Positions 4,683-63,826 of a stretch of 64,000 nt of DNA are shown piece after piece; positions within the stretch are counted from its first letter, which is position 1, and the number at the start of each line of letters is the position of its first letter. The stretch lies in assembly GCF_965363235.1 (NCBI RefSeq), contig NC_134849.1:18936863-19000862 (forward strand). Direction: 5' to 3'. This DNA comes from Mytilus galloprovincialis. Lineage: Eukaryota > Mollusca > Bivalvia > Mytilida > Mytilidae. Both the position numbers and the translations under genes were made by a program. The notes below the pieces were generated by a model. That model was not told the DNA's origin and did not search any database. It worked only from the letters and a program-made list of their open reading frames with translations.

Positions 4683-4866
4683 CAGATATTTCATATTTTT
4701 TGGAAAGTTTTGTGTTGTTTCGTAAATTATACCATAGTTTTTGTTGAAACCCCTCGGCAACCTCACTCGACTTCGTCTGGTGAGGTTATTGCCGGGGGTT
4801 TCAACAAAAGCTATGGTATAATTTACGAAACACCACAAAACTGTCCAAAAGATATGAAATATCTAT
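4683..4866. repeat. Long foldback palindrome (arms about 80 bp)
   Basis: AGATATTTCATATTTT through CGGCAACCTCAC is mirrored by GTGAGGTTATTGCCG through AAAAGATATGAAATATCT around a loop of about 13 nt (TCGACTTCGTCTG). The arms match with a few mismatches. The structure could extrude as a cruciform or be a foldback MITE. Confidence 0.9.
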
Positions 4867-5190
4867 AACTAATGAAACATATACATCTAATGTAATTATT
4901 TTGCAGTGACAGTTATAATTTCCGGTCACTGATCTTTGTAGACCGATTTTGCTGAACTTTCGGCTATGTGTTATCGTCCTGAATATCCGTGTCATATTTA
5001 AGACAAATACACAAAATGAATCAATACTTTTTGTCATAATAGTATTATTTTGATATATACTTACCGATACAGACTACATCGAATAATATTCATAACCAAT
5101 GAATTTATTGTACAATTGATTTTCTTTGTTGAATATGCATGAGATATTTGTCACTGGACGTAGCTGAAACTCTAACTAATCAATCACAAT

Positions 5191-7062
5191 TCTATGTTAT
5201 AAACGTTTTACTTGTAGGTTCTACTGTTGGTGAATGTGGCTAACTTTTGAGGCGCCACTACCCAGTACCATGGATTGTATGCACTTCAAGATACTTATAA
5301 AAACTCTATGTTATAAACGTTTTACTTGTAGATTTTACTGTTGGTGAATGTGGCTAACTTTTGAGGCGCCACTCCCCAGTACAATGGATTGTATGCACTT
5401 CAAGATACTTATAAAAACTCTATGTTATAAACGTTTTACTTGTAGATTTTACTGTTGGTGAATGTGGCTAACTTTTGAGGCGCCACTCCCCAGTACCATG
5501 GATTGTATGCACTTCAAGATACTTATAAAAACTCTATGTTATAAACGTTTTACTTGTAGATTTTACTGTTGGTGAATGTGGCTAACTTTTGAGGCGCCAC
5601 TCCCCAGTACCATGGATTGTATGCACTTCAAGATACTTATAAAAACTCTTTGTTATATAAAAAAGAAGATGTGGTATGATTGCCAATGCGACAACTAGTA
5701 TAAACGTTTTACTTGTAGATTTTACTGTTGGTGAATGTGGCTAACTTTTGAGGCGCCACTCCCCAGTACCATGGATTGTATGCACTTCAAGATACTTATA
5801 AAAACTCTATGTTATAAACGTTTTACTTGTAGATTTTACTGTTGGTGAATGTGGCTAACTTTTGAGGCGCCACTCCCCAGTACCATGGATTGTATGCACT
5901 TCAAGATACTTATAAAAACTCTATGTTATAAACGTTTTACTTGTAGATTTTACTGTTGGTGAATGTGGCTAACTTTTGAGGCGCCACTCCCCAGTACCAT
6001 GGATTGTATCCATTTCAAGATACTTATAAAAACTCTATGTTATAAACGTTTTACTTGTAGATTTTACTGTTGGTGAATGTGGCTAACTTTTGAGGCGCCA
6101 CTCCCCAGTACCATGGATTGTATGCACTTCAAGATACTTATAAAAACTCTTTGTTATATAAAAAAGAAGATGTGGTATGATTGCCAATGCGACAACTAGT
6201 ATAAACGTTTTACTTGTAGATTTTACTGTTGGTGAATGTGGCTAACTTTTGAGGCGCCACTCCCCAGTACCATGGATTGTATGCACTTCAAGATACTTAT
6301 AAAAACTCTATGTTATAAACGTTTTACTTGTAGATTTTACTGTTGGTGAATGTGGCTAACTTTTGAGGCGCCACTCCCCAGTACCATGGATTGTATGCAC
6401 TTCAAGATACTTATAAAAACTCTATGTTATAAACGTTTTACTTGTAGATTTTACTGTTGGTGAATGTGGCTAACTTTTGAGGCGCCACTCCCCAGTACCA
6501 TGGATTGTATCCATTTCAAGATACTTATAAAAACTCTATGTTATAAACGTTTTACTTGTAGATTTTACTGTTGGTGAATGTGGCTAACTTTTGAGGCGTC
6601 ACTCCCCAGTACCATGGATTGTATGCACTTCAAGATACTTATAAAAACTCTATGTTATAAACGTTTTACTTGTAGATTTTACTGTTGGTGAATGTGGCTA
6701 ACTTTTGAGGCGCCACTCCCCAGTACCATGGATTGTATGCATTTCAAGATACTTATAAAAACTCTATGTTATAAACGTTTTACTTGTAGATTTTACTGTT
6801 GGTGAATGTGGCTAACTTTTGAGGCGCCACTCCCCAGTACCATGGATTGTATGCACTTCAAGATACTTATAAAAACTCTTTGTTATATAAAAAAGAAGAT
6901 GTGGTATGATTGCCAATGCGACAACTAGTATAAACGTTTTACTTGTAGATTTTACTGTTGGTGAATGTGGCTAACTTTTGAGGCGCCACTCCCCAGTACC
7001 ATGGATTGTATGCACTTCAAGATACTTATAAAAACTCTATGTTATAAACGTTTTACTTGTAG
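5191..7062 (+). repeat. Tandem array of 15 partial GPx Sec-exon copies
   Basis: The unit is 114 bp: 27 bp of intron end (TCTATG to the acceptor TTTTACTTGTAG) plus the first 87 bp of the Sec exon. Exon-like parts start at 5218, 5332, 5446, 5560, 5719, 5833, 5947, 6061, 6220, 6334, 6448, 6562, 6676, 6790 and 6949; the functional exon at 7063 is the sixteenth. Each copy keeps the frame through UGA for 29 codons but breaks off after AAAAAC, has no donor, and meets TAA four codons later. Copies 2-15 start ATTTTACTG, while copy 1 and the functional exon start GTTCTACTG. All 15 copies carry AAC for Ser and TAT for Asn. The units are nearly identical, which implies recent expansion or homogenisation. 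Confidence 0.95.
5649..5699 (+). repeat. 45-bp insert in array units, derived from a dispersed mussel repeat
   Basis: The spacer after copies 4, 8 and 14 (near 5649, 6150 and 6879) is 45 bp longer. The extra sequence contains AAGAAGATGTGGTATGATTG, the start of the dispersed repeat seen whole at 48363 and 55010. All three inserts look identical, so one insertion was copied along with neighbouring units. Confidence 0.85.
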
Positions 7063-7188
7063 GTTCTACTGTTGGTGAATGTGGCTAGCTTTTGAGGCGC
7101 CACTCCCCAGTACCATGGATTGAATGCACTTCAAGATACTTATAAAAACTTCCACGTCGTTGGGGTTCCTTGTAATCTGTTTGGCAAG
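7063..7188 (+). CDS. GPX: GPx exon with the selenocysteine codon (functional copy)
   Basis: This 126-nt exon follows the acceptor TTTTACTTGTAG and ends at AAG before the donor GTACGT. It is the only one of 16 copies that continues past the conserved 87 nt into the VPCNLFGK block and reaches a donor. It keeps the family residues Ser before FU (AGC) and Asn in GLNAL (AAT), which the array copies have changed to Asn and Tyr. The in-frame TGA is at 7093-7095. Confidence 0.93.
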
Positions 7189-9058
7189 GTACGTATTTGT
7201 GGTAGAGTGACTCAAGCAAATTTTACTTAGTCAATGTTTCATTATTTAATAAAATAATAAAACGCAAAACTAAGAACGTAAGTCTAAGAATCGCAAAACT
7301 AAGGTTGATGTGGTTCATAAGTGTGTCTTGTTTCTCGTTCTTTATATAGACTAGACCGTTAGTTTTCCTCATTTGAATGATTTTGCACTAGTCGTGTTTG
7401 GAGCCTTTTATAGCTTGCTATATGAGCCAATGCTCCGTATTGAAGATCGTACGTTAACCTATAATGGTTTACTTTTATAAATTGTGACTTGGATGGAGAG
7501 TTGTCTCATTGGCACTCATACCATATCTTATTATATCTATGTACCATTTAGACAGATTTTAGCAAGTTTTGAGTTTAAATGAAATCCTTTAACCGAAACA
7601 AAAATTATGTTGCAAGTAAAGCTATATAATGTCTTCTGGCTAAAAGACAATTGATTCTGGTTAGCGACGTCTTTTTGTAAAGCACTTTACAACTACATGT
7701 GAAATCTTCCTTTTTTTACATCAAAGTGACTACAAGAATAACTAAACAACTTTTTGGTTTATGAAAATTTTGAAGAGAATAAATTTTGGAACTAAATTTT
7801 GGATTTTTTTCTTTCAATATTAAGTTTGTTACTTCCCTTCTAACAAAATGGGGTTTTAATAGTTTATATCATCACGACCCAAAAAAAATGTATTCAAATT
7901 TTAACTTCACATCTCTATATATTGAAGCCTGTACATGCTATTTTTTTTTTTTTTTTTTTTTTTCGAAAAAACGTTTTCAATTTTGTTGTTTTTAATGAAA
8001 AACAATTTTCGCTATTTTTAAAAGTGAAATGACACCTATTTTGTTTACTTTCATAGCAGATGATTTTAAGGAGCGAAAGTTATGGTTCATTTGAATGATT
8101 TACAATTTTTATTTCAGCAAGAGCCAGGAGCAAACGGAACGGAAATTTTAAACATGCTAAAACATGTTCGTCCAGGTTCCGGATTCGTTCCAAACTTCAC
8201 ACTGACACAAAAGACTGATGTCAATGGAGAAAAGGAACATGCATTATTCACATACCTAAAGGTAATTTCTAATTGTGTTGGTTTATGCTTTTCAGCTCAC
8301 CGGGACCGAAGGGCTCCATGTTAGCTTATGCCATCACTTGGCGTCCGTCGTCTGTCGTCGTCAAAAACTATTTTAATAATCTTCTCTTCTGAAACTACCG
8401 AGCCAATTTACTTCTAACTTTAACAGAATGTTTCTTAATGTATCTAGTTTATAAATTGTATCCAAAGTTTTGATCCACCAACAAACTTGGCTGCAAAGTC
8501 ATTGGTTGTCGTGGTCTCGGAGTTTATTTTCTATGGAGAAATTAATGTATGAATGTACAATGTATGCTCTGTACTTTCCTACTTTTTGTTAGTAGTACCA
8601 TTATAGGTAAAATTGCATGCTCTATATGAGGATAACGAAATAACCTACTTTGTTTGCTGATTTGTGTAATGTATCCACGGTTAAAATATAAGTTCAGTCA
8701 TTATAATTACAAACAAATATGTAACAAAAAAACACAAAAAGGAATTTTCCGTTTTGAATTTTCCTCAGAGTTCGGTTTTTTTTCTTTTTTTTTTCATACA
8801 AATCATGTCTGTATATTTTAGGCTTACTGTCCACCAGTAGATGACATATTTTATACAGAAACATCTGGAATTTATTACAAGCCTTACCATAACAGTGATG
8901 TCAGATGGAACTTTGAAAAATTCCTTATCAATAAAGAAGGGAAAGCCGTAATGAGATACCCAACGCGTCTGGTACCATCCGCGTTAGAAAAAGATATAGA
9001 AGATTTGTTAGAGGAGGGATTACAAACAAACTCATATGGTGGAGGACCGGGGCGTTGA
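7063..9058 (+). CDS. GPX: Selenocysteine glutathione peroxidase, 3' part of gene (three exons)
   Basis: Glutathione peroxidases reduce hydrogen peroxide and lipid hydroperoxides with glutathione, using a selenocysteine. The exons 7063-7188, 8118-8261 and 8822-9058 join in phase 0 at GT/AG sites and give 168 residues. Exon 1 holds the active-site strand VNVASFUGATPQY, with U encoded by TGA at 7093-7095, then VPCNLFGK. Exon 2 opens with QEPG, supplying the catalytic Gln, followed by the family block [11 protein letters not shown]. Exon 3 has VRWNFEKFL, with catalytic Trp-Asn at 8906-8911. The tetrad Sec/Gln/Trp/Asn is therefore complete. The C-terminal extension and the QEPG form resemble the GPx3/5/6 group, which is often secreted; subtype is inferred. 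The N-terminal exon or exons (signal peptide, first strand, about 50 residues) were not found and may lie before the window. A SECIS hairpin in the 3' UTR supports UGA decoding. A gene caller that reads TGA as stop would miss this gene. Confidence 0.93.
7475..7540 (-). repeat. Fragment of dispersed family C (reverse)
   Basis: GAGAGTTGTCTCATTGGCAC followed by TCATACCATATCTT is the reverse complement of the family start seen at 48363. Other reverse pieces lie near 16715-16805, 46045-46115, 48740-48815, 51850-51945 and 59385-59440. Confidence 0.8.
8118..8261 (+). CDS. GPX: GPx exon with catalytic Gln and VRPG block
   Basis: The acceptor TTTATTTCAG precedes CAA GAG CCA GGA (QEPG). The exon is 48 codons, phase 0 at both ends, with donor GTAATT. 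It carries [12 protein letters not shown] and [11 protein letters not shown], both highly characteristic of the family. Confidence 0.94.
8290..8560 (+). repeat. Dispersed repeat family G (intronic copy)
   Basis: This lies inside a GPx intron. It contains AGCTTATGCCATCACTTGGC followed by CGTCCGTCGTC runs, a sequence I recall as a common bivalve repeat. The same family lies in reverse at 31835-32060 and 40040-40275. Confidence 0.75.
8822..9058 (+). CDS. GPX: GPx terminal exon with WNFEKFL and stop
   Basis: The acceptor TATATTTTAG precedes GCT TAC TGT. The exon encodes 78 residues and then TGA at 9056-9058, which is the true stop and distinct from the recoded TGA in the Sec exon. It holds the catalytic Trp-Asn pair and an acidic C-terminal tail ending in a Gly-rich stretch. 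Confidence 0.93.
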   Translation, partial: AYCPPVDDIFYTETSGIYYKPYHNSDVRWNFEKFLINKEGKAVMRYPTRLVPSALEKDIEDLLEEGLQTNSYGGGPGR

Positions 9059-9567
9059 CTAGTAAATTGGACTTTATTTTCGGCTTTATGGCTTTTTATA
9101 TGCAAAATATTGTAAGGCGCAAACCATTTTCTTATTTAGGGAAAAGATAAGCAAAATTAGTTTATTTACTGTTTTATTTATTTGGATTGGATGAGGTGGG
9201 GTGGTAGGTTGAAGGAATGAAATATCCTTCCCTGGTAAAAAAAATGGTTTGTGCCCAAAACTAGCGTTCGCAATACTAATAGCATTGAAGGTTTTTTAAT
9301 GATTCATTTTAACAAATATTTAATTTCATTTATTGCCAACGAATATTACTATATAATTGTTTAAAATAATTGACATGTATCGTACTGATATAAATTAAAT
9401 TTAAGTCTTATTTATTTTATGATGTAATTTTTACAGTTTATGATTAATTTGCCAGAAATAGAGGGAACTCTATGGTGAATTTTGAATGAATCAATGATAA
9501 AATGGTATTTGCATTCTATCATTTTTGTATTTGGTTCTTGTAAAAAGCAATGAATAAAACAAATAAA
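9059..9567 (+). other. GPx 3' UTR with poly(A) signals
   Basis: AT-rich untranslated sequence after the GPx stop codon. It contains the SECIS and ends with two AATAAA signals at 9553-9558 and 9562-9567. The extent of the UTR is inferred from those signals. Confidence 0.6.
9434..9493 (+). promoter_or_regulatory. SECIS element (form 2 type) in GPx 3' UTR
   Basis: A SECIS recruits SBP2 and the Sec elongation factor so that UGA is read as selenocysteine. The non-Watson-Crick quartet is ATGAT at 9440-9444 opposite TTGAA at 9482-9486, giving G-A and A-G tandem pairs. Helix II pairs AATTTGCC (9446-9453) with GGTGAATT (9474-9481). An apical internal loop carries the unpaired adenines (AGAA, 9454-9457). 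An extra 6-bp helix, ATAGAG/CTCTAT, with a GGAA tetraloop (9458-9473) defines form 2. Lower helix I pairs GTTTA with TGAAT. The element lies about 380 nt after the stop, a normal distance. The fold was drawn by eye. Confidence 0.87.
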
Positions 9568-10205
9568 ACAACAGTTTAGTTTAATAGTGTTTTTTTTTTA
9601 TGGTAAACAAGAGATTACTACAGAGTATCCATCAGTAGTTCCTTCACTTAAAATAACATATTCAGTTCAAACACATGTCACTATAATAAATAATTCAGCT
9701 AGTTAGAGCTGGGAATAGTGTGTCAATAAAAAATGTTCAAGGTTAAAGAGATTGATTAATGTTGGTGTTAAGGTATACTACTTCCCAAATCATAGTACGT
9801 CCTACCTGTTGCAAACGAAAAAGGGTTGGAAAAAATATTCCCTCAAGTGAATTTGACAGTTGTAGGAAGTAAATCCTACATTTAATTGCAGTAAAAAAAA
9901 TCTGGGTCAGACATATATTTTGGGTGTTTCAAAGCACCATTATTTTATTATTTGGTGTTTCTATAGAATATTTTGGAAGATTTACACAGGTAAGAAAGAG
10001 GTGAAATTTTGTCTTTAGTATTGGACAGGATGAAGTATACTCATTCCAAAAATTTCTTAATTTGAAACAAAAATAGTTCTGAGTTTTGTTTTGCAAAGTG
10101 CAAATTTAACAATGGGGGTAAAACACCGTAAACCCCCTTTCAGCACACTTGACTAAAATATCTGTGGCAAGTTTGATGACTATAGTAGAGGGAATACACA
10201 AAAAG
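9568..10205. other. No gene seen
   Basis: AT-rich intergenic sequence between the GPx poly(A) signals and a dispersed repeat. No exon, tandem repeat or terminal inverted repeat was recognised. Confidence 0.5.
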
Positions 10206-10560
10206 TAAATAAAAAAGAAGATGTGGTATGATTTGATGAACGAAAAACAAATATGTAACACATAAACAAACTACAACCACTGAATTACAGGCTCCTGACT
10301 TGGGACAGGCACATACATAAATAATGTGACGGGGTTAAACATGTTAGCGGGATCCCAACCCTCCCCCTAACGGCCTGAGACAGTGGTATTACAATACAAC
10401 ATAAGAACGAACTATAAAAATCAGTTGAAAATGCATCAGATGGACAAAAATACAAGTGGACGTGGCCGGGTACTTATACATCCCAACACAAAAAGACACA
10501 ATGAACAGATCTGAGAGTACTCGCAGTTATCTGATAGCTAGTTCAAAGCCACTAACAACT
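10206..10560 (+). repeat. Dispersed family C, internally deleted copy
   Basis: It starts AAAAAAGAAGATGTGGTATG, then jumps directly to the later block ATGAACGAAAAACAAATATG, so the middle is missing relative to 48363-48640. It continues through GGGATCCCAACCCTCC and the CGTGGCCGGGTAC block. Confidence 0.8.
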
Positions 10561-11159
10561 AATAAAAGAATCATGCATCTAAGACTAAACTATCAATCCG
10601 TACACATCCAACATCCAATGTGTACTATTTACCTTTGACAGAAAACTTTTTTTAAGTAAACCCTTATCAATTCCTGTTAAAAATTGTCCCAAAAGTTGAC
10701 AATTCTGAGATGCAATGTTTAATTTGAATAAACAAAATTCAAAGGTTTCCATATTTATTTTAAACTGTTTTAGTGGAGACATGTGTAGTTATATTATTCT
10801 TGAAAGAAAAAAATATGTCAAAAGCAACAAAAGAACAGAATAGACTGTGTTGGTGTTGTTTGCTTTCTTTGTCTTTATATAAATAAAATTATCTACTTCC
10901 TCCCTCTCAGACCTTTCAGCTCTTTAACTTTTAACTATCTCAACGTTACATTTTTTTATTTCTATTTCATCCTTTAGTTGACTTTAATTCAATTTTGAAT
11001 TTTTTAACTGTAAAATTACTTTTGTTTGTGATTCTATACAGAACTTTGAGATGAGATTCAATGTTCAATGAAATAAATACGAATTAAGATAAAAAGAATG
11101 ACAGAAGAACATTATCAAATGAAAGTCAACAGGGAGAACGATCGTCCACAATACAAAAA

Positions 11160-17700: not shown

Positions 17701-20700
17701 GAATTTTGTCATTTTTCTAGAACAACAATATTTCCATAAAATTTTATGCGTGTCTGTAAAAAACGTCCACTAGGTGTGCCAGTTACAAACAGTTTAGTGA
17801 GAGACAATCAATCAATCTAAAATATAGAACTAACAATGTGAACCAATTACAGACTCTCTGCCAACGCTTACAAGGACCTAACAACGCTCATTTTCTTTCT
17901 GTTCTGACAACAGATAAGTCAACAATATATTAAAAAAAAAGTACTACAGAAACCTTTTAAACCATTCCTTTTTAAAAAGAAGACGTGGTATGAATGCCAA
18001 TAAGACAATAGTTATCAAAGGAAGTCCTTTTCACAAAAAAATCTTAAGTGTAAAATTTATCGTAAGTCTTTTAACAGTTCTTAATAATTCAACTAAATAT
18101 TTTTATCGTAAGACTAATTTTACACTTCAGATTTTTGGTGAAAATGACTACAGATTATAACTTAATACGCTAGACGCGCGTTTCGTCCACATCAGACTCA
18201 TCAGTGACGCTCAGATAAAAATAGTTATAAAGCCAAACAAGTAAAAAGTTGAAGAACATTGAGGACCCAAAATTCGAAAAAAAATTGTGCCAAATACGGC
18301 TAAGGTAATCTATTCCTAGGATGAGAAAATCATTAGTTTTTCGAAAAAAAAAACATTTTGTATCAGAAAATTTATAAAATGACCATACAAATAATATTTA
18401 TGTCAACACCGAAGTGCTGATTACTGGGATGGTGATACCCTCGGGGACAAAAAGTCCACTAGCAGTGGTATCGACCCAGTGGTGCAAATAGTTATCAAAG
18501 GTACCAGGATTATAATTTAATACGCCAGACGCGCGTTTTGTCTACACAAGACTTATCAATGTCGCTCAGATCAAAAAAGTTGTTAAGCCAAACAAATACA
18601 AAGTTAAAGAGCATTGAGGACCCAAAATTCCAAAACACTGTGCCAAATACGGCTAAGGTAATCTATTCCTGGGATAAGAAAATCCTTATTATTTCGGAAA
18701 AATCAAAGTTTTGTATCAGAAAATTTATAAAAATGACCATATAAATGATATTCATGTCAACACCAAAGTGCTTATTACTGGGCTTGTGATACCCTCGGGG
18801 ACAAAAATTCCACCAACAGTGGCATCTACCTAGTTGTGTTAATAGTTATCAACGGTACCAGGAATATAACTTAATACGCCAGACGCGCGTTTCGTCTACA
18901 TAAGACTCATCAGTGACGCCTAGATCAAAATAGTTGTAAAGCCAAACAAGTACAAAGTTGAAGATCATTGAGGACCCAAAATTCCCAAAAATTGTGCCAA
19001 ATACAGCTAAAGTTATTTTTTCATGGGATAATAAAATCCTTAGTTTTTCGAAATATCAAAGTTTTGTATCAGGAAATTTATAAAAATGACCATATAAATG
19101 ATATTCATGTCAACACCGAAGTGCTGACTACTGGGCTGGTGATACCCTCGGTAACGAAACGTCCACCATCAGTGGCATCGACCAAGTGGTGTAAGTAGTT
19201 ATCACTCTGTATCCAGTCAAAAAAGTTAACAATTAAAAGGCAACGCACAGTCTTCAATACGGCTTACACGAACAGCAAGCTAGCATATAAAGAGACTGGT
19301 GAAAAACATACCAAACGGGAAATTTAACGGCATAATCTATATAAAAACGAGATACGAAAAATCCTATGAATCCACACCATTTAACAACAGGTTTCTGACT
19401 TAGGACAGGTCCAAAAAATGCAGCCGGGTTTAAAACATTTAACAGGCGCAAACATTTACCCTAACCTGAGACAGCACTGTAACATAACAACATAAAAAAG
19501 CAAATTTTTAATTAAGAAATAATTCATGGAAGCCATAGATTGTTGGAAATTTACACCTGGCCTGGGCCGTGATATTCGAATTTTATCCTGAGCGTTAGCG
19601 AGGGATAAAATCAACGAATATCACGGCCCAGGCTATGTGTAAATTTCCAACAATCTATGGTTTCCATGAATTATTTCGAGTCTAATAGGACAAATACGGT
19701 CATTAAAAAACTGAAGCGAGGGTGGGTATGCTGTGTGTGTGGCTTTTTTACTCCCTGTTAGATAAAGCTCAAATATCTTTATAAATATGTAGCTTGCGTA
19801 GGTTATTTCGTGAATAACTGCTAGAAAAAAACTTTTTAATTCTTTAAATTCTCAAACCCAACATTTGCCATTTTTAATTTACATGTTTTGTTCGTAAGCT
19901 TCCGTCAAATCCAAAGTTGACATTTCGTAACTAAGGAGCCTCCATGTTGACTTGCTAAAATGAGTTAATATGCAAATAATGCAATAGAATAGAAAATAAA
20001 ACAAAACCTACCTCAAAAATCAGTTTTAATACAATATCATACGAATTCCGATGGTTCACGTAAAAGAAAACTTTCAACTTTAGCGGTTTCATTTGTATGA
20101 CGTCATGTTTTGAAATGACTTAAATGCGCCAAAAAGATTAATAGACTTTCGCGGAATTTTATTTAATTTTTATTTTGTTGATTTCACCGAGCTCTTGTGC
20201 ATTACTTCTTTTTATTATGCATACGAATAAGAATAAAAGTTATTTTGTCTTTTTTAATTGCACTTTTTAAAACAATAAAATCGGCAAAGGGTCTGCAAAT
20301 AGGTTCCAATACATATAGATTTACGTGGGAAGTATATTATAACAGCCATTATTATGTAAATCTCTGAGTCTGCTCTAAGTATATTTTATCGAGAATTTTA
20401 TCACAGTGTTGTTTACAAAGCTAAAGAAGCACGTCATATTAGAATATCAATTGAAATGGCTTTAACTCAATAGAAAGGACATTAAAAAAAAAAAAAAAAA
20501 CCAAGTATACATAGTAAAATAAACCAAAAAATTTGATCTATGACACAATATATACGATATTTTCTAATTTTTCTAATTTGATATAACAAATTATCAATCT
20601 GGATCTCTCAAACCAATATATTTTTTTGAAAGCCAATATGATGGCAAGACCACCCGATTACATAACCGAAATAACTGCATTGTTAAAAAAGCACTATACA

Positions 20701-32972: not shown

Positions 32973-35900
32973 GTAAGATTTTTAATAATAATTCAAACCT
33001 TTGGCTTGTTACGAAAAGAAAACAAATCGGTTCATCAAAACGTCATCTACTAGTAATCAAAGCAATATGATTATTAGCCTATAGCATTGTAATTGTAAAA
33101 ATTATCTTTCAGAAGGGTAAACAAAAAAGGCATAAGTTAAAAAAATGAGCATATATTAATAGACGTGAACTCATATCAAAGAGTTGGACATAACTATTGC
33201 TTCACAGTCAATATTTCTATTTGTTTGAAATTTATTTTTTTAACAGAATGTAATGTGTCGCACGGGATGAAACATTTTGCATTTTCCGCGGGTAAGAGAG
33301 AGGCGAAAGATACCAAAGGGATATTTAAACTCATTCATAAATAAAAAGATCACTTTGCCTTTTATTCTGTCGTTCTATAGTACACAAATGTAACAGGCAT
33401 TACGAACTTCAACCTTCGGGTTTTAGTTTCGAGAAGACAACAAATAATTTGAAAAATAATCTAGTAGAAACCTTGTTATATTTTGAAATGACAAATCGTT
33501 TTGCATTTTCAATCTGATATAAAAAGTTATGACACACAATCATTGAAAAGCACACAATGGCGTAGCTTGATTCTTATTTCCACTGAAACACACGATCTGA
33601 AACTAGGGAGTTTGCTGTCAAAACAACGTCAGAAAATAGATGTCAGCACTTACACACGAATCTTATGCAGGTTTGATTGATTGGTTGTTATTTGTTAAAC
33701 ATCATATCAGGTGACACAGATTCCATGTTAATAAAATTGTGAAAGAAAATGGCGAATTCGAATATGCCAAAGAGTAACATTCAGACCAAAGGGCAGAAAG
33801 AAGAAATCAAATGGACCCTCAACACAGCGTGAAAATCCGTCAACTTTCGAGCATGATTTTTGTACTCAGACTCGAAAATCAACCAATCAAATTGTTGGAT
33901 TTCATGTTTTGAGGATGATTTTTGTGCTCCGAGCACTGAGCAAAGTTTTATGCCTTCAAGGCCTGGTCTTGATAAAACTTTCGAGTAATTTTTTTTATAC
34001 TTATACCTCACAATCAACCAATCAAAACGTTGGACTTCATGTTTCGAGCATTATTTTTGTGCTTCGAGCTTGAACTTCTTGCGGGCTTAAGCGTTACATA
34101 TTTCAATAGAAAGGTTCTACAGATTGGGTCGACCAGGGTGAAAACATGAATACCTGCTGCAAGGAGATTATGGTAGTGAGGAAAAAGCCAATCCAGAATC
34201 AATCGGCAATCCTCGGGTGAATCCGATACTCTCCTTCTATCTGTTAGATGAAGGTACGGAATCGGCCGAGTTATGACGAATGTATCCAGAATCAATCGGT
34301 AATCCTCGGGTGAATCCGATACTCTCCGTCTATCTGTTAGATGGAGGTACGGAATCGGCCGAGTTATGACGAATGCATCTAGAATATAACATTTTGTCTA
34401 CTAGATGATTTTGAAAATTGCTATTCTACATAAGTAGTAATGTTATTACCTTTTGATAAAGACAAAACTAAAGGCTTATTATTCTCGTTTTAATGAATGC
34501 CACATCCTCCTGAGATGCACATTTTGCCACACAAGGGGACACATAACATTTTGGTTAAAGATTTAAAAAGTAAAAACACAAAAATACTGAACTCCGAGGA
34601 AAATTCAAAAAGGAAAGTCCAAAATCAAAAGGCAAAATCAAAAGTCCAAACACATCAAACGAATGGATAACAACTGTCATATTCCTGACTTGGTACAGGC
34701 ATTTTCTAATGTAAAAAATGGTGGATTGAACCTGGTTTTATAGCTAGCTAAACCTCTCACTTATATGACAGTCGCATCAAATTCCATTACATTGTCAACG
34801 ATGTGTGAACAAAACAAACATACTTTTTTTAAGAGTGTCCTCGACTCTGTCCTCCATAATTTAATCAATTTTGATCAACAAACTTTGATCAGCACTATAA
34901 CATGTATAATTGTATGATATTGTAATGATTTATTATTTTAAAGTTTTAGGTACATGCATCCGTGTTCCTTGTTTAGACAAGATATCAAACTGTCACGAAT
35001 ATGATGCAGATTTATGTACCAACGTTTTGTACAAATTATTTAGGGAAGATAACTGTGCAAGGTTCTGTGGAATTTGTGCTGATTATACAAGTAAGCATGT
35101 TTATGTTAGATAAACTACGGTTCGGACAGAAACATTTTATATAATTATGTGTTATGTAATTATTAATATTTGGACATGATGTTATAACAGCAGTTTGATT
35201 CTACCAGTGTATCTTATCCGATAGATGAAAATTCCTAGTGATTTTTCATAAACCAACAAAAAATCACCATTTTTCTGGTCCAATGTAAATATCCATCACT
35301 CAGCATAAGATTCGAAAGAGGGTTTGTTGAAATAGAAATACATGGTATTGGTTTTTTTTTTGGAAAAGGGGGGGGGGTACTTTTTATTAACCAAGACTTG
35401 CATAGTTGATTTATGTAAAACATGGATTAAGTAAACTAGTCTTTTTCATCCATAAGTTTTCACACAAGTGAATCTGGAATAATTAAACTTGTGTATCTGT
35501 ACCGTGAATGTTTATAAACACTAGTGCTTTTGAATCAGGAATGATTACACTCGAATGTGCGTGTGTACCGTGCATGATTATATACAATAGTGCTTTTGAA
35601 TCTGGAAATATTACACTTGTGATTTTGTACCAGGAATGATTACAATAAGTGAGTTTGTACCAGGAATAAATGCACTAGTTATTTCTTTTTATTCCCTTCC
35701 AACATCAAGGGTCCAGTTATTCAGTTTCTTTGTAATAAAATGATAAGAATCACTAAACAAACATGTCACTATACCAACAGAAGTGATCCAGAAATATGCT
35801 TTCCTGGTTTTATCATCTTTTCAGCTGAAATAACTTGTGAGGAATCGACTACTACAAGAAGGCATACATCAACTGATAAAATGACGACAAGAACCACAAT

Positions 35901-45793: not shown

Positions 45794-48700
45794 GTAAGAA
45801 AAATAATAGACCCATAGTAATACAACAAGAAAATAGAGGTCAGAAATACCTTATTATCGTCCCATAATACAATTTATTGCATTGGATATATTGGCATTCT
45901 TTTTGCTTATTTTATATTTAATTCCTTATCTTTAAATTTAGTGTTTTCACTGGCAGCTATTTGATCTTGACGGGACATGATATTAACGTGTCTCATGAAT
46001 AATAGGACGATATTCTGCTTTCACTTTTGTTCACACAACCGTTGGTCTTTCCAAATTGTGACTTGATTGGAGAGTTGTCTCGTTGGCACTCATACCACAT
46101 TTTCTTATATCTACTTATGTTGAGCTCTGTATATAGGTTTGTTTTGTTTTGATATGATTTGTCTGTCTCTCTTCGAATTTATTTTTGATTTCAACTTTGA
46201 TATCTTCTGTCTCTCTACAAAGAATAAAAAAGTCTTATAGATTCATTATTATTCGTTTGATTCCAATTTTCGTGGATTTCCTTGTTACTCGAGAACCACA
46301 AATTCCAACGAGTTGCACATTTTCTATAAGAATGTATGCAGACTCTGGCAAAACCATATTATAATCAAATATCCACGAATATGTAAGTTTACCCCAATAT
46401 TCGAAATGAGTATCCACCAAAGAAAAATAAATTCCCTGTATTGTTATATAAATGACCGAGATGTAATGATGTTATTTAAGGAACCAAAATTGAACAACTA
46501 TAACTGTACGGCTCCAACAAAGAGCAAAACCATCCTTCATAGTAAGGTATAAATGGCTGCGAAATGACAAAACTAACGGCCTCATTTTTGTACAGAAATA
46601 ATAAGCAAAACAAATTAAATATGATATACATTAAAAAAATTAACCCACTGAGTTACATGTATCTGACTTGGAACAAGTTACAAGTTTACACATGTTGTGT
46701 TTAATTGTATGAAACTATATTATTGTGTGACATGCTATTTTTTCATGTATTTAGAAATAGGACTTGATGTTAAAAGCATTTGTGAATATGGTGTATGCGC
46801 CAACAATGGAACTTGTTCTGAAAACGAGACCAACTTTAAATGTCAATGCATGAAAGGTTATTATGGAAGGGTATGCGAACGTAAGTAGTCGAAATTGTTA
46901 CAGAAGCCACATTACGAAGAGTTTGTATGCCCCACCTACGATAGTTGAACGGCATTATGTTTCTGGAGCGTATTGAATATTTGGATATTTAATGTAGATT
47001 GCCGTTCACACTAATGTGACAACCTCACTCACAGTCGTCATTGTAAATATCAGATACAAAATTCGTTCATTGTCGGAATATGCAACATTCATTTGTATAA
47101 GCTTTAATTTAAATGCGAAAGAAATGAAATGTTCGCCGAGCTTTCTCCTTTTTCGTAGCGTAATACTAGTACATGTTTTACTTTCCTGCAATGTACAGAA
47201 CAAACTAATGTAAATAGCAAACACTTATAATTCACGCAAAACAACTTGCATCTCTATTTTACCGACGTTATAATCAAACTACGTTTCTAACGTCAATATT
47301 TTCGCGGAGATCGGACTTAACCCTCTTGCTGCCGGAGGGACACATATGTCCAAACCGGCAGTGCCGGAGGGACACATATGTCCATGGATAAATTTATGCA
47401 AGCTTCTCATCAATGCTGTATCTCTTTCAATTAAAATACCGAAGATAAAACAGAGTTATGTTTTCTCCAGTGGGTCCCAAATGTATTGGTCATTATGTCG
47501 TGACGTCATATATCGAATGCCGTCGTTGTTTGGCATGTTACGTCACAGACGTTGTTCTGTCGTATTTTCCGGCATATGAAATGCAACCTTGAAAAACGGT
47601 CGGCAGCAAGAGGGTTAAGCGTATGGAAGCATTGCACTTTAGAGTAGACCATCGTATTTTAGCGCCCCATCGCACTTTAGAGTCCTACACATGTATAATT
47701 TTAAAAGGCGTTTTTCTTGACTCATTTAATTCGTACCATTAATGATTAAACATTTTCGACTCTGTCACAATGAACACACAACTATTATATTTCTCTAAAA
47801 GTAAAGATTAATTGTGAGATTTATCCAATAAAGTATCTTTATATCCGTCCTTTCTAATTGTTAAAATGTGTGACCTGGTCTTTGGTAGGCTGAAAATTAA
47901 CCATACAGAAAACACAAGAAACCTTTTAGTAAAATTGATTTTCGATACATATAAGAATCTATACTAAACGCAAAATGATGAGAACAGCAACATTATTGTC
48001 ATTACCTTGATCATTGAGTAAAGACAAAGAATCAGATTCAATGGACAATTCTTAAATTTCTTAGCTTTGTCAACATCATAATAGTAAAATAGCTGTATGT
48101 GAAATACACATGTAATTTTTTTTTTTTAACACGCTATAAAAAAATTCTGTTCTCTTTCTTTTTTACAGATATGGTATGTAGTAACATCATTTGCTATAAT
48201 GGAGGTTTCTGTGTAATAAATGGTTCTTTTGGAGAATGTTTGTGTCCTCCGGGGTTTTATGGATCACACTGTGAAGGTAACATATAATTGGTTAAACGAA
48301 TACTGGCGCGAAAATATATCAAATCCAGTGCACAGTACGCGTGTTTTCCGAATATTCTTAATATAAAAAAGAAGATGTGGTATGATTGCCAATGAGACAA
48401 CTATCCACAAAAGACAAAAATAACACAGATATTAACAACTATAGGTTACCGTACGGCCTTCAACAATGAGCAAAGCCCATACCGCATAGTGAGCTATAAA
48501 AGGCCCCGATAAGACAATGTAAAACAATTCAAACGAGAAAACTAACGGCCTTATTTATGTAAAAAAAATGAACGAAAAACAAATATGTAACACATAAACA
48601 AACGACAACCACTGAATTACAGGCTACGCTAAAGATTAAAACGTTGTGGTAGCAAAACACTTTAAAGTCTAAGGAGTATCAATGAATATATAGCATATTC

Positions 48701-51700
48701 TGAACAGATTGGATCTGCTATGTAATAAGACATGTAATGTCTATCCATGTTGTTTGGATTTTGATGGATAGTTCATTAGTTGTCTCACTAGCAAACATAT
48801 ATCATATTTTATTTATTTATATGTGGTCTAAAAGAGAGGCGAAAGACACCAGAGGGACAGTCAAACTCATATGTCGAAAATAAACTGACAGCGCCATGGT
48901 GAAAAAGAAAAAGACCAACAGACAAATAATAACATAGAAAATTAATTAAAAGACTAAGCAACACGAACCCCTCTAAAACAGGTCTCAGGTACTCGGGAAT
49001 AGTAAGTATACCCGAGGGAGTTACATGTTTTTTTTAAATACAATTAAGTTCAGAGAAATAGAATCATTGACGGCAATATCCAAAGACTTCATTATTTTTT
49101 TTTAAATTGTTACAAATATCCTAAATAAAAGCATCAAAATAATGGTTAAAAAGTTTATTTTTTTATTTTTAGGAACACCTTGTTCGAACGTCACATGTAA
49201 AAATGGCGGAATTTGTTATTCCGTCGACGGGAAATTTAACTGCTCCTGTCCTGATGGTACTAGCGGAAAATACTGTGAACGTAAGAATGTTGGAGATCTT
49301 TTTAAAATAAAATTTAGAATGGAAACGAGAAATGTGTCAAAGAGAAAAACACCCCGACCAAAAAGTAGAAAAACAGCTTAGCCCCCCCCCCCCCCTCCCA
49401 CACGTGAGAGCTAGAAAATTTCTCACCCGGAGGCGAGATTCAGTTGGCTCCTGGACAATAATATAGACTAGTTCAGCGAAAAAGACTGCCATGTTAATTT
49501 TCGAAACCTATAAATGAACCACAATAAACGATAAACATATAAGACTAACGCAAGTCAGTATGTATATCGAGAAATAAGGAGATGTGGTATCATTGCAAAT
49601 GAGACCACTATTCACCAAATTTCACGTAAAGTGGATGTTAGCAATTATAAGTAACCGGTATAGCCTTCAACAATACGAAAATAATCAGTAGATTTGTTAT
49701 AAATGGCACGATATGAAAGATTTGAAACAATTCAATTGAGAAAAACAAACAGCCTGATAGACCATGTTTGTAACAAAACAATTAACGCAAAAAAAATATG
49801 ACTGTCACGAATGAACGACAACCACTAAATTGCGGGTACTTATTTTGTGATAGGCTCATATAGAATACGGTGGGGTAAAAGTGTTTTGCTGAAGCCAAAA
49901 CCTTCCCCTAGACATGTGACAGTTTGTCTTTAATTTATGTTGTTGTCTTTTTTGATTGATATATTCAACTAGCAGTCAAATAAGCGGTATAATATTTTAG
50001 CTATAAATAATAACAATGAATTAAACTTTTTGTTTTCCAAATTCAATTATAGATACACCTTGCGATAGACCTGAGGTCCGCTGTCTGAATGGAGGTTCAT
50101 GCCTATTCTCATCAAACACCTCTACATGTGCGTGTAGCTACCGGTACTTCGGGGAAGCGTGTGAGAAATATTGTCAATACGGTAAGATTCTTCAAACCGA
50201 ACAGGAAACAATAATATCGGGATCTTATATTATTATGGTCGAACTTGCTTGTATCTAAAGTGATATTTAGTTTAAATGCTGTGCAAAAGCGGATTTCCAG
50301 TAAATGGCCAATAGTACTTATCAAACGTAAGGGTTTTGTCTTACTCTTAGAATATTTGTCGGACTACATTGCACTTAGCGATACAGGTTAAAACAAATCG
50401 TCAATATACCCAAAGTCCACTACATTGGCAACGATGTACGATTGATTGCTTGTTAGTGTTTTAACGCCACTTTTATGCGCCACATTTGGGCTATTTCGTG
50501 GCGGCCACTTTTTATTGGTGGCAAGAATGTGCGAACAAAAAAAAAACCAGACGTAAGAGGCATAAAGGTTAACAACAGGGACACAGCAGCCACAATTGTG
50601 CCACCATCTTAATTATATAAAAAAAAATATATATTAACAAACATTAACTATGCCAAAAACACAAAATGACGGGATGTATAAAAACAGAGCCACGCCATAT
50701 GTAAGAAAGAAACACAAAATGAAAAGGTACATAGACCAAGCATATCAGAAAAAATGATAGACAATCAAATAGAAATTATTATGGAACGATAACACAATGA
50801 CGGGATGTACACGTACAGAGCCACGTCACATGTAAGAAAGAAACTCAAGCAGGCATACAGACAAAACAAATTAGCAAAACAGAAAGACAAGAATACCAAA
50901 ATTATCATAGAACAATGACACAATAACGAGATGTACAAGTACAGAGCCACAGCAAATTGATACCACCAAAATAGACTAAACAACGAATATTTGTTAGTTA
51001 CTTTGTCATTTGGTTTCTTGTGGATAGTTGATAAAAGAATACAATAACACGTTATAGTTAATGTTTTATATTTTCTAAAAAAAAAGGAAAAGACTATTCT
51101 TTAGAAGTATACTGTCAATTGTATTTACGTATACGTAGGTTTTTTTCTAAAACAATTTTATAAAACAGTGTTTTGTTTCTGTTCTAATTTTGCAATGATA
51201 ATAATTTAGTATTATTGTTTATACATTTTAAGGAGCACAGTACTACAGCTGCACATTCGAAGAACATGAAGACGGATGTTTTCTACAAAATGATTTATCT
51301 GATAATTTCAACTGGACTAGAAATACGGTATATAGTCAAAATGAAAGTTTATTAATATATGAATTATACTATAATTGAACAGGTCATCACATTGAACGAC
51401 AAATTTATGTGACGTATAAAATTTTCTGACGTCAGACACACAAATAAATGAATGTGTTTGTAGATAGATTTTTGTGTTTTGTAAAAATGTTCATTTTAAA
51501 ATTGTTATACGATGATGACTGATGTACCCGTATTTTGACTATTTTATTTTAATGTCTGTTTAGCTAACGCATCAATGTAAATATAACGGAATTTGATTAG
51601 ACTGTCATCAAAGTGAGAGGGTTAGCGCTATAGAACCAGGTTTAATCCACCATTTTCTACATTTGAAAATGCCTGTACCAATTCAGGATTATGACAGTTC

Positions 51701-55009: not shown

Positions 55010-55440
55010 AAAAGGAGCTGTGGTATGATTGCCAATGAGCAACTCTCTACAAGAGACCAAAATGACATAGAAATTAATAATTATAGGTCACCATTCGGCC
55101 GTCAACAATGAGCAAAGCCTATACCGCATAGTCGGCTATAAAAGGTCCCGAAATAATGAAAATGTAAAACAATTCAAACGAGAAAACTAACGGCCTCAGT
55201 TTATGTACAAAAAATGAACGAATATCAAATCTGTAACACATAAACAAACGACAACCACTGAATTACAGGCTCCTGACTTGGGACACGAACATACATACAG
55301 AATGTGGCGGGTTTAAACATGTTTGCGGGATTTCGACCCTCCCCTAACCTTGAACAGTGGTATATGAGTACAGCATTCGAACGAACTATAAAATATAGTT
55401 AAAATTAGATGGACAAAAATACAAGTGGTCGTATTTCTTT
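55010..55440 (+). repeat. Dispersed family C, full-length copy
   Basis: It runs from AAAAAAGGAGCTGTGGTATG to the ACAAAAATACAAGTGGTCG block, the longest uninterrupted copy in the window (about 430 bp). Confidence 0.88.
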
Positions 55441-56139: not shown

Positions 56140-57203
56140 TTTGTCGCAAATATGTATGTATACTTTATCATAAAGATATTAATTTCTATAACTAAGTGTA
56201 CAATATCTTTGTAAAGCTAATTTAATTGTATTTAAAAAATTACAAAGAAACATATTCTTCCCTGTTTCATTTTAAGACCAATGTCCTATTCTCCATTATT
56301 CTCCTCTATGTGGGGTTCAATTAAGGAGGTACTTTGTGTATTTAAATTTTGATAAAATATATTTTTAGCCTAATTTAATTGTAGTATAAATCAATATTAG
56401 TATTAAGTCAGTGTCAGAAAAATATCACCTTTTTGTATTCATTACGAAACTGTTGTAAGTCTCGATTAACATTGTGGTTCCCCAGTTTATAATTCCCATA
56501 AAAACAAAAATAATATCTTTCTGAGATGACCGAATATTGTTTATAAGCTTTTTTCAGAACATTAAGAAGTGAACGAATGGTTAGGAGGAAGGTACGTACT
56601 ACATATTTTATAATCGGCATCAGAAATAAATCTACCAAAATGAAATAGACTTAATCGGGTGTTTAATTATGTTTGTTGTTAAATTTTTATACAAAAATAT
56701 TTTCTTAAAAGCGTATTATATACGTCAAATCATGTAGCAACAAGAAGAGTTCTGAATTGTTTTGTCAGAACTTTAGTACTAATAACATAAAGAGTACCAA
56801 TGTTTCTGCACCAAATTCTTATTTCTACATTTTAAAATGTCTCTTCAGTGATGCTCTATGCCGATAGATTTGAAAATCCAAAGTTTATTAAAAATCTGAA
56901 GAACTATGAATAAAAAAAAGAACAAAAGAGTATAGCCACAGCCTGGTACAGAATCAGAGCTTAGCAAAAGGGAGATACATTCCTTGATTTATTTATTTTT
57001 CAAAATTTTGTATGTTTGTTTGCCATGCAGAGATAATAAAGATCGAGTAATGTACAGATTAATACATTCAAATGGTTTAAAATTGGGCATTCGTTTTTGT
57101 ATGTTTACAAAAATATAACTCACTGAAGTAATTGACACCAAATTTTTCTTGAAGAAATGCACTATGAACTCTATAATTTCAGAATCCAGAGAGTAAAAGA
57201 GAA
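56140..57203 (+). other. GPCR upstream region, with a 5' UTR splice acceptor
   Basis: An AG acceptor after a short pyrimidine-containing stretch (CTATAATTTCAG, ending 57182) lies 21 nt before the ATG, suggesting an intron in the 5' UTR. The block 56140-56280 is repeated at 59150-59285. A diverged family D copy lies at 56805-57000. Confidence 0.5.
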
Positions 57204-58421
57204 ATGATGATGTCAAACTCAAGTCACAGCAACATATATCTGGAAGAACTAAACAATGCTAAAGTTCAGTTATTGATACCAAACACTGTACTTGCATTTG
57301 TGTTTCTAGTCACCGGTGTCGTTGGCAATGGTTTGGTCTTGTTCGTTTATAGATTTAAACTCAAATCAAAATCGGATGATAGATATTTTATTCCTTGTTT
57401 ATCTTTGGTTGATATGATAGCTTGTAGCATTGGAGCAACATATGCGATTTCTATGAACTTTAATCCTTTTAATTTTCGAAGTGATTTAATATGTAAATTA
57501 GTTTGGTTTTTACATCAATCAATTTCCTTTAGCTCGGCTCTGTTGCTATTGGCAATTGCTGTGCAACGGTATATCAAGGTCAGTCGACTAGTAAATTCTT
57601 CCATGAGCCTGCGCAGTAAACGAATGACTATTATATCAATCTTGATTGGATCAACAGTTATATCAGTACCCTGTTTGGTTTTGTACGGCAAAGATGAGCT
57701 TTTATTGAAAAACGAAAACAGAACAATTACGGGATACAATTGCGGAGCTGTGCCAAATGTGAATCAAACTTTTCTGTTTAGTTATTCCGTTATATTACTA
57801 TTGATGTGTTTGTCTGGGATTTTTGCAGTCATCATATTATATTCATTGATACTTCGTACAATATTCAAACATGAATCGTTCAGGAAGAGAAGTTTCAAAA
57901 GACCAAATAAACACTCTTTAAACGACAATGAACAACATAATTCAGGAAATACAATTCAAACAGAGATATCAAATATTACAGATGATGATTACTCTGTCGA
58001 CAAATTTGAACCCAACACCACACAGATTGATTCAACGACGATAAACAATCAACAAGGCACCATGCAAGGAGGACCAGTTATTAAGCGGAAAAACTCTACT
58101 GTTCCGTTTGTAATCCAAACAAGACGAAAATCGAAATTTTTTAGAAATGTCTCCCGTTTCACGCACAAACATCGATTCTCTGTTATGTTCTTCCTTATAA
58201 CAATACTATTTTGTATTTCTTATCTTCCTAGAATTGCACTGATGATCATAGAATCTGTTATAGCTAATTTCTGGGACAATTTGACGGATCCGGAATACGT
58301 CATAGCTTTATGTTTTTATAGAGGACATCTTCTCAATACTGTTGTAAATCCTATAATATATTTGATTTTTGATACGGACTTTAGGTCATCATGTCAACGA
58401 CTATGTTGTAGTAATGAATGA
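57204..58421 (+). CDS. Rhodopsin-family (class A) G protein-coupled receptor, single coding exon
   Basis: 405 residues with seven membrane helices at about 23-49, 60-83, 96-123, 141-162, 190-218, 326-349 and 366-389. Class A marks are GNGLVLF in helix 1, LSLVDMIA in helix 2 (Asp 70), a C97-C180 disulfide pair, FCISYLP in helix 6 and NPIIY at 382-386 in helix 7. DRY at the end of helix 3 is QRY (121-123). That loses the acidic residue of the ionic lock and may raise basal activity. N-glycosylation sites lie near the N-terminus. The third intracellular loop is long (about 219-325), basic at both ends. CC near 400-401 could be palmitoylated. It most resembles peptide-type orphan receptors expanded in molluscs, but no ligand can be named. 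Codons 1-3 are all ATG, so the exact start is ambiguous. Confidence 0.92.
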   Translation: MMMSNSSHSNIYLEELNNAKVQLLIPNTVLAFVFLVTGVVGNGLVLFVYRFKLKSKSDDRYFIPCLSLVDMIACSIGATYAISMNFNPFNFRSDLICKLVWFLHQSISFSSALLLLAIAVQRYIKVSRLVNSSMSLRSKRMTIISILIGSTVISVPCLVLYGKDELLLKNENRTITGYNCGAVPNVNQTFLFSYSVILLLMCLSGIFAVIILYSLILRTIFKHESFRKRSFKRPNKHSLNDNEQHNSGNTIQTEISNITDDDYSVDKFEPNTTQIDSTTINNQQGTMQGGPVIKRKNSTVPFVIQTRRKSKFFRNVSRFTHKHRFSVMFFLITILFCISYLPRIALMIIESVIANFWDNLTDPEYVIALCFYRGHLLNTVVNPIIYLIFDTDFRSSCQRLCCSNE

Positions 58422-59149: not shown

Positions 59150-59515
59150 ACGTCCAGTTTGTATGTATACTTTATCATCAAGATATAATTTTCTATAACT
59201 AAGTGTACAATATCTTTATCAAGCTTATTTAATTGTATTTAAAATAATTACAAACAACTATATTCTTCCCTGTTTCATTTGAATGCCGATATCATATCAC
59301 TTAATTGTTTTTACTTTATGTGGGTTTTGCTTAGAGGAAGCTAATTTGTTTTATATGTATGTTTACATTCTAAATAAGCTTCGATGTGATGGAGAGTTGT
59401 CTCATTGGCACTCACACTACATCTTCCTATATCTATTGATGTTTCTACGAATACATCTTCTTAAAACTGTTGTAAATCCTGTCATATATTTAGTTTTTTG
59501 ATACCGACTTAGGGT
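59150..59515 (+). pseudogene. Second GPCR remnant: upstream block plus helix 7
   Basis: 59150-59285 repeats the upstream block of the intact GPCR. 59450-59515 repeats helix 7 (HLLKTVVNPVIYLVF) and then TGA. The receptor body between them is gone and a reverse family C fragment (59385-59440) sits in its place. Confidence 0.85.
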
Positions 59516-62767: not shown

Positions 62768-63826
62768 ATGAGTGATAGTGGTATAAAAATTGTTTCATAC
62801 AACTGTCAAGGTTTAAATTCAAAGGAGAAGAGGAGAGATGTTTTTGATTATCCTAAAGCAAAAAATTGCCACATATATTGTTTACAAGATACACATTTTT
62901 CAGAAAAAGAAGAAATATCAATAAAAAATCTATGGGGAGGAGACTGTATTTTCAATTCTTTTGCAACAAACAAAAGAGGGGTAGCAATATTTTTTACCAA
63001 AAACTTTGAATACAAGATATATAGGTTAAAAAAAGATGATCAAGGAAATCTGTTAGGAATTGATATTGAAATTGAAGGAAAAAGAATAACTTTGATATGC
63101 TTATATGGTCCAAATAAAGATTCACCTGAATTTTATTCTAGAGTAAGTGATACAATAGAAGACTTGAACAAGCAATCAGTTTTAATAACTGGAGATTACA
63201 ATTTAGTCCAAAACCAAAATCTTGATACTTATAATTACCAAAATGTATATAACCCAAAAGCCAAAGAGAAAGTTTTAAATATAATAGAAAATTATGATTT
63301 AACAGATCCCTATAGGGAATTGTACCCTGAACTAAAAAAATTTACATGGAGAAAAAATAATCCCATTAAACAACCAAGATTGGATTTCTTTTTAATATCG
63401 CAAGGCCTTAATCAACATGTTCATGATATACACATTCTCAACAGTTATAGATCCGATCACTCCCCAATAATGTTACATTTAAAGAGGAATAACTTTATAA
63501 TTGGTAAAGGTCTATGGAAATTTAACAATTCACTTTTACATGACATTGAATATTCAGCTGCTGTTAAAGAGAATATAAATAAAGTTAAAGAACAATACGC
63601 ATCACTAGTATACAAGAGAGAAACATTAGAAAAGATAAATGATTTAGAAATTCAATTTACTATAAACGATCAACTCTTTCTAGAAACTTTATTAACAGAA
63701 ATTAGAGGAAAATCAATTTCATATGCTTCTTTTAGGAAGAAACAAAAAGATAAAAAAGAAAGAATACTATCAGAAGATATTAAAAAAACTAGAAGAACAA
63801 ATATTGACAGAAGAAATATTTATTGA
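62768..63826 (+). mobile_element. L1/Tx1-like LINE ORF2: endonuclease domain
   Basis: 352 codons of an APE-type endonuclease that nicks target DNA for LINE retrotransposition. Catalytic motifs are present: SYNCQGLN (10-17), LQDTH (39-43; the usual ETH is DTH), CLYGPN (111-116), TGDYN (141-145), RLDFFL (204-209) and YRSDHS (227-232). A run of seven A at 63782-63788 puts the reading one base out and causes the stop at 63826. In the next frame the protein continues to the window end with WIEEGEKPSNFFLNLE, the linker before the reverse transcriptase in this clade. The RT itself lies beyond the window. One apparent frameshift is the only defect seen, so this is a young insertion or a sequencing error at a homopolymer. 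Confidence 0.9.

Follow-up and report, generated by a model that had tools for sequence, protein, structure and literature searches.

The selenocysteine (Sec) exon of what looks like a real GPx3/6-like selenoprotein gene in the mussel Mytilus galloprovincialis is preceded by 15 truncated tandem copies of its own beginning. Because copy 16 alone makes a definable exon, our preferred reading, which we consider probable, is that the array is a young minisatellite that arose by partial exon duplication and is spliced out unused as intron. The array itself is a real and unusual arrangement, which we describe here within a window of 64,000 nucleotides, the whole stretch of DNA that was analyzed.

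Layout of the array

A comparison of the window with copy 16 as the query returned 16 acceptors across 5218-7063, with the first exon base at 5218, 5332, 5446, 5560, 5719, 5833, 5947 and 6061 in copies 1-8 and at 6220, 6334, 6448, 6562, 6676, 6790, 6949 and 7063 in copies 9-16; 12 of the spacings are 114 bp and three are 159 bp. Tandem Repeats Finder reports a period of 114 in four stretches within 5191-7150, in agreement with the acceptor positions, and units 1-15 match the copy-16 query at 94.8-97.4% identity over 108-115 bp (E ≤1.75e-47 each), which excludes chance by a wide margin. Tandem units of tens of bp at high identity characterize a minisatellite, and the array, with 16 copies at a period of 114, shows this feature.

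Each of the 15 fragment copies (5191..7035, + strand) joins the final 27 bp of the intron to 87 nt (29 codons) from the start of the Sec exon and stops there, without the last 39 nt. Copy 16 has a 3' splice site (7036..7062, + strand) with a branch-like TATAAAC, a pyrimidine tract and TAG, followed by the complete 126-nt active-site exon (7063..7188, + strand) with its in-frame UGA (Sec), and it alone reaches the donor AAG/GTACGT (7186-7194). The last 20 bp of the intron piece, TATAAACGTTTTACTTGTAG, are identical in all 16 copies, and the first 7 of its 27 bases are altered in copies 5, 9 and 15 by a 45-bp insert upstream. The lengths of the units and of the insert are all divisible by three, so every acceptor is in the same phase.

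The 45-bp insert is a piece of a dispersed repeat that stands after copies 4, 8 and 14, in the spacers at 5647..5718, 6148..6219 and 6877..6948 (all + strand), and it accounts for the 159-bp spacings. The core of this repeat occurs at 10 sites in the window at ≤3 mismatches, three of them within the array, with 0.00 expected from 100 shuffles; the other seven cores lie at 7507-7529, 17980-18002, 46081-46103, 48372-48394, 49579-49601, 55015-55037 and 59403-59425. An exact-pattern scan of viral contigs, where animal DNA is not expected, gave 0 matches for the exon and 0 for the insert.

The initial annotation had described 16 tandem copies with only the last one complete, and the acceptor positions, Tandem Repeats Finder and the single donor-bearing copy bear this out. 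Its coordinates and description were right, with the insert as the sole omission: the 114-bp unit that it gave holds for 12 of 15 spacings but not for the three of 159 bp, and the 27-bp intron end that it placed in every unit is kept over its last 20 bp throughout but not over its first 7 bases in the three copies that follow an insert.

Five more tandem arrays are present in the window, with units of 37-354 bp in 2 to 5 copies, a context that we count in favor of the minisatellite reading.

Other features of the window include a 354-bp unit in three tandem copies with 86% matches (18153-19204), and a minus-strand open frame with a 31-residue repeat (34017-34397), without a Pfam match, that overlaps a 93-bp tandem repeat (34191-34385, 2.1 copies). 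An inverted repeat ~330 bp upstream of the array (4684-4864), with two 70-nt arms that are 94% complementary and 41 nt between them, resembles a small mobile element of hairpin type, and a reading frame with an endonuclease domain (62768-63823; Exo_endo_phos, 31.3 bits) is probably a LINE-type retroelement. Additionally, an uninterrupted reading frame at 57177-58418 has a rhodopsin-family 7tm_1 receptor domain (85.8 bits).

The host glutathione peroxidase gene

Downstream of copy 16, the next GPx exon (8118..8261, + strand, 48 codons) matches Pfam GSHPx at 33.9 bits (cut-off 27), and the last GPx coding exon (8822..9058, + strand) closes with a stop TGA at 9056-9058; taken alone, 8822-9055 matches no Pfam family. 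The 168-aa product of copy 16 and the two downstream exons is 92% identical to the protein P0001 over 100% of the query, the closest among the matches listed. Of the relatives that carry a name, within the 120 listed of 1291 homologues, the best-scoring belong to the molluscs Nucella and Batillaria, and no mussel is among the molluscs named. The in-frame UGA of copy 16 lies within NVASFUG, as in GPx selenoproteins, and its position is presumably the catalytic position of the family. P0001 and P0002 have Trp at the UGA position, probably a TGA translated as Trp by their source, and P0123 terminates where the UGA is expected. The two further exons, the match to P0001 and the in-frame UGA together support the earlier identification of the repeated sequence as the Sec exon of a GPx gene.

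The 3' UTR contains a SECIS-like hairpin ~380 nt past the stop codon (9436..9491, + strand; of form II), with the quartet ATGA at 9440, AA at 9456 and GA ending at 9485, and the sequence also shows AATAAA polyadenylation-type signals at two sites, 9553-9558 and 9562-9567 (+ strand). The hairpin was first noticed by eye, then folded and then examined by a rule scan. It folds at -15.2 kcal/mol (z -3.21, with 2 of 200 shuffles equally good) and, with wider flanks, gives z -2.10 (5 of 200). The rule for SECIS features, composed after the site had been spotted by eye, picked out one site in the 3' UTR, two elsewhere on the window's + strand and none on the - strand, and 33 of 1000 UTR surrogates also satisfied it. 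Rfam gave 0 matches in the whole window at gathering cut-offs and, in 9000-10600 at E up to 5, five weak matches, none of them SECIS. The hairpin is likely a real SECIS element and, absent from the earlier description, it extends the GPx selenoprotein identification on good but not conclusive grounds.

Searches for exon 1 in the window gave no credible match, either with the 120 listed of 1291 homologues (weak matches outside 5000-9100 only, best E 0.021) or with P0123 (best E 0.58); exon 1 therefore probably lies before the start of the window, which would make the intron longer than 5.2 kb. P0124 terminates in ...YRGKVSN, as expected for exon 1 running into its intron, and its V-S-N would be compatible with a GTNAGYAAY-type donor. 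Together, P0123 and P0124 place the exon boundary at GK/V, the point to which the acceptors of the array would be spliced.

Splice sites and reading frames

The fragments retain the branch-like site, the pyrimidine tract and AG, and the identity of the 20 bp across all copies supports the earlier statement that copies 1-15 carry acceptor-like 3' splice sites. Splice sites were scored with a profile, the acceptors in four of the 16 copies. Those at 5218 and 7063 score 2.29 each and those at 5332 and 5719 score 1.29, the lower score of the inner acceptors (2 of 14 scored) being due to +1 A, and the acceptors of the downstream exons score 4.04 and 2.87. Among the 3116 AGs, a score of 2.29 ranks 233, 1.29 ranks 393, 4.04 ranks 102 and 2.87 ranks 179; the acceptors of the array are thus acceptable without being strong, and this holds for the true one of copy 16 as well. 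Among the donors, scored likewise, that of copy 16 scores 5.12 bits and the next real donor 4.39, and the best site in the array scores 1.19 and is present in copy 16 too. The Asn-to-Tyr change of the fragments was also considered as a useful donor and rejected, ATT/GTATGC (13 copies) scoring -1.17 bits.

Joining exon 1 to copies 1, 2, 4 or 15, the four of 15 fragments that were read, would lead to a stop at codon 33 or 40, upstream of two junctions, and copy 16 contains no stop apart from the UGA. Under exon definition, the choice of an acceptor is favored by a paired downstream donor, and copy 16 would be favored in this way because the fragments lack an adequate donor and those read stop early. 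The array was also considered as a repeat protein, which we rejected: the copies read have stops in the GPx frame, and in the standard code the ATG TGG frame is interrupted at 37-40 aa. Under code 4 one frame of the array stays open (5699-6196); its translation matched none of the 7996 candidate proteins scored, at E up to 10.

The same splice signals would suit a decoy array, in which the 15 acceptors would at times engage the exon 1 donor or tie up spliceosome components and array length would tune GPx output, the products being unproductive, with an early stop before two downstream junctions, and likely degraded. We consider this unlikely, although it accords with the retained branch-like site, pyrimidine tract and AG, with the 20 bp shared without change by all 16 copies, with the early stops in the fragments read, and with an acceptor in copy 1 that scores as that of copy 16 and is transcribed earlier. 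However, no donor above 1.19 bits is available to define a fragment exon, the inner acceptors are weaker where scored, and a search for proteins in which exon 1 is joined to fragment-type sequence gave two proteins, neither of the fragment type, within a visible range of ~51-163 aa and a set covering few mussel-like transcripts. Similarly, three of the four close relatives aligned cross from exon 1 to the active-site exon, and these read NVASF (P0001 and P0123) or NVAGF (P0002, 73% identical); the fragment-type NVANF occurs in none of the three, and since their source organisms may not carry the array, the support for the minisatellite reading is weak.

Precedents from other genes bear on the decoy reading. 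According to the accessible part of the report on human ABCA7, the length of an intronic VNTR correlates with skipping of exon 19 and inversely with expression (PMC5954066). Like the GPx array, that VNTR is a minisatellite in an intron of a protein-coding gene, and a splicing effect is conceivable here; unlike it, as far as the accessible text describes it, the GPx unit comprises a 3' splice site and part of the adjoining coding exon with its Sec codon. The part of a study of INS intron 1 that is available describes two pseudoacceptor sites in a silencer (PMC4081105), which resemble the GPx array as extra AG acceptors able to compete, whereas the array presents 15 near-identical copies of the authentic site. 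A splicing brake set by repeat number, in which 15 copies of the gene's 3' splice site would rival the real exon and divert part of the transcripts to an early stop and decay, so that GPx output would follow the array length of the individual, is likewise unlikely in our estimation, if anything slightly more so.

Tandem exon duplication also underlies mutually exclusive exons of the Dscam type. The GPx array resembles these in having tandem exon copies in one gene and in the same phase, and the Sec codon is common to every copy, but we regard it as extremely improbable that the copies are alternative coding exons of which one is chosen at a time. Unlike those of Dscam-type arrays, 15 of the 16 copies are truncated, lacking the last 39 nt and an adequate donor, and the four fragments read end in stops. 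The array was accordingly rejected as a mutually exclusive exon array, in which each copy combines an acceptor, a donor and in-frame coding.

History of the copies and its implications

At the two sites where copy 16 codes for Ser and Asn, every one of the 15 fragments codes for Asn and Tyr instead, just as the initial annotation had stated. In the relatives, the Ser site is occupied by Thr in 34, Ser in 14, Gly in 2 and Tyr in 2 of 52 matched sequences (68 of 120 unmatched) and by Asn in none, and the Asn site by Asn in 72, Ser in 1 and Leu in 1 of 74 matched (46 of 120 unmatched) and by Tyr in none. Moreover, 8 of the 9 variable exon sites are nonsynonymous, where random changes of all kinds would give 77% and transitions on their own 62%, a share that would fit unconstrained fragments, although this concerns a small number of sites in non-independent copies. 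These observations make the proposed protein-level constraint on copy 16 alone plausible, but the 15-of-15 agreement amounts to about one observation, because both sites most likely changed before the fragments multiplied and their history is thus a common one. The intron piece has 0 point changes in 27 sites outside the insert and the exon piece 9 in 87, which resembles upkeep of the acceptor and is not significant (Fisher p 0.11), chance giving the same about 1 time in 9.

The exon fragment of copy 1 (5218..5304, + strand), which has a private Pro-to-Thr change, differs from copy 16 at three exon sites, the two being alike ahead of exon position 26, and the inner copies differ from copy 16 at four to six. 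Copy 1 combines the Asn and Tyr changes with G1 and C4 as in copy 16; it therefore looks nearest to the first duplicate, and the inner copies would descend from a later one. Another explanation of this pattern would be conversion by copy 16. Among the inner copies 37 of 91 pairs are identical, 9 of the 16 exon pieces are one sequence, and identical blocks extend over 585 bases at offset 501 and 323 bases at offset 729. The block duplications look recent, and given these long identical blocks, copy number would be expected to vary between individuals. Such blocks are also places where assemblers err, and the array could be an artefact in which the real copy number is far smaller or two haplotypes were joined. 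We hold this to be quite improbable, as the ordered private and shared substitutions and the three inserts would not be produced by erroneous copying of one unit; the copy number alone may be off.

In the minisatellite reading, 114 bp across an intron-exon boundary, comprising 27 bp of the intron end together with 87 nt from the Sec exon in a GPx3/6-like selenoprotein gene, would have been duplicated in tandem. The incomplete upstream copy, freed from coding, would then have acquired the two amino-acid changes, and the changed copy would have multiplied as a minisatellite through block duplications. The pre-mRNA would carry the 15 fragments at the end of a long intron, with acceptor-like sites and no adequate donor, and exon definition would pick copy 16, the sole acceptor with a strong donor 126 nt downstream. 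The array would be removed as intron and be nearly neutral, apart at most from leaky splicing into a fragment, which would lead to an early stop. Points against this reading are the identity of the 20 acceptor bases in all 16 copies, the equal scores (2.29) of the acceptors of copies 1 and 16 and the common phase of all acceptors. The initial annotation had left decoy, truncation and neutral options unranked; the donors, the stops and the identical blocks favor the neutral one, with a small share of the probability left to the others.

The host gene resembles other GPx3/6-like selenoprotein genes in its UGA within NVASFUG, its homologous exons and the SECIS-like hairpin in its 3' UTR, and differs from them in the array; we know of no other GPx gene in which exon fragments form an array. 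Literature on such arrays and on mussel GPx, covered in part and with few subscription papers, yielded no array of Sec-exon fragments. The array illustrates how a minisatellite can arise from the edge of a coding exon, and both RNA-seq aligners and gene predictors are liable to be misled by it; the available part of the EASTR report describes how short-read aligners can create false junctions between repeats (PMC10632439). It also offers a natural test of acceptor choice among 16 near-identical sites, in which exon definition predicts that the donor-paired one wins. If output falls with copy number, variation in a selenium-dependent antioxidant enzyme would be tied to a minisatellite.
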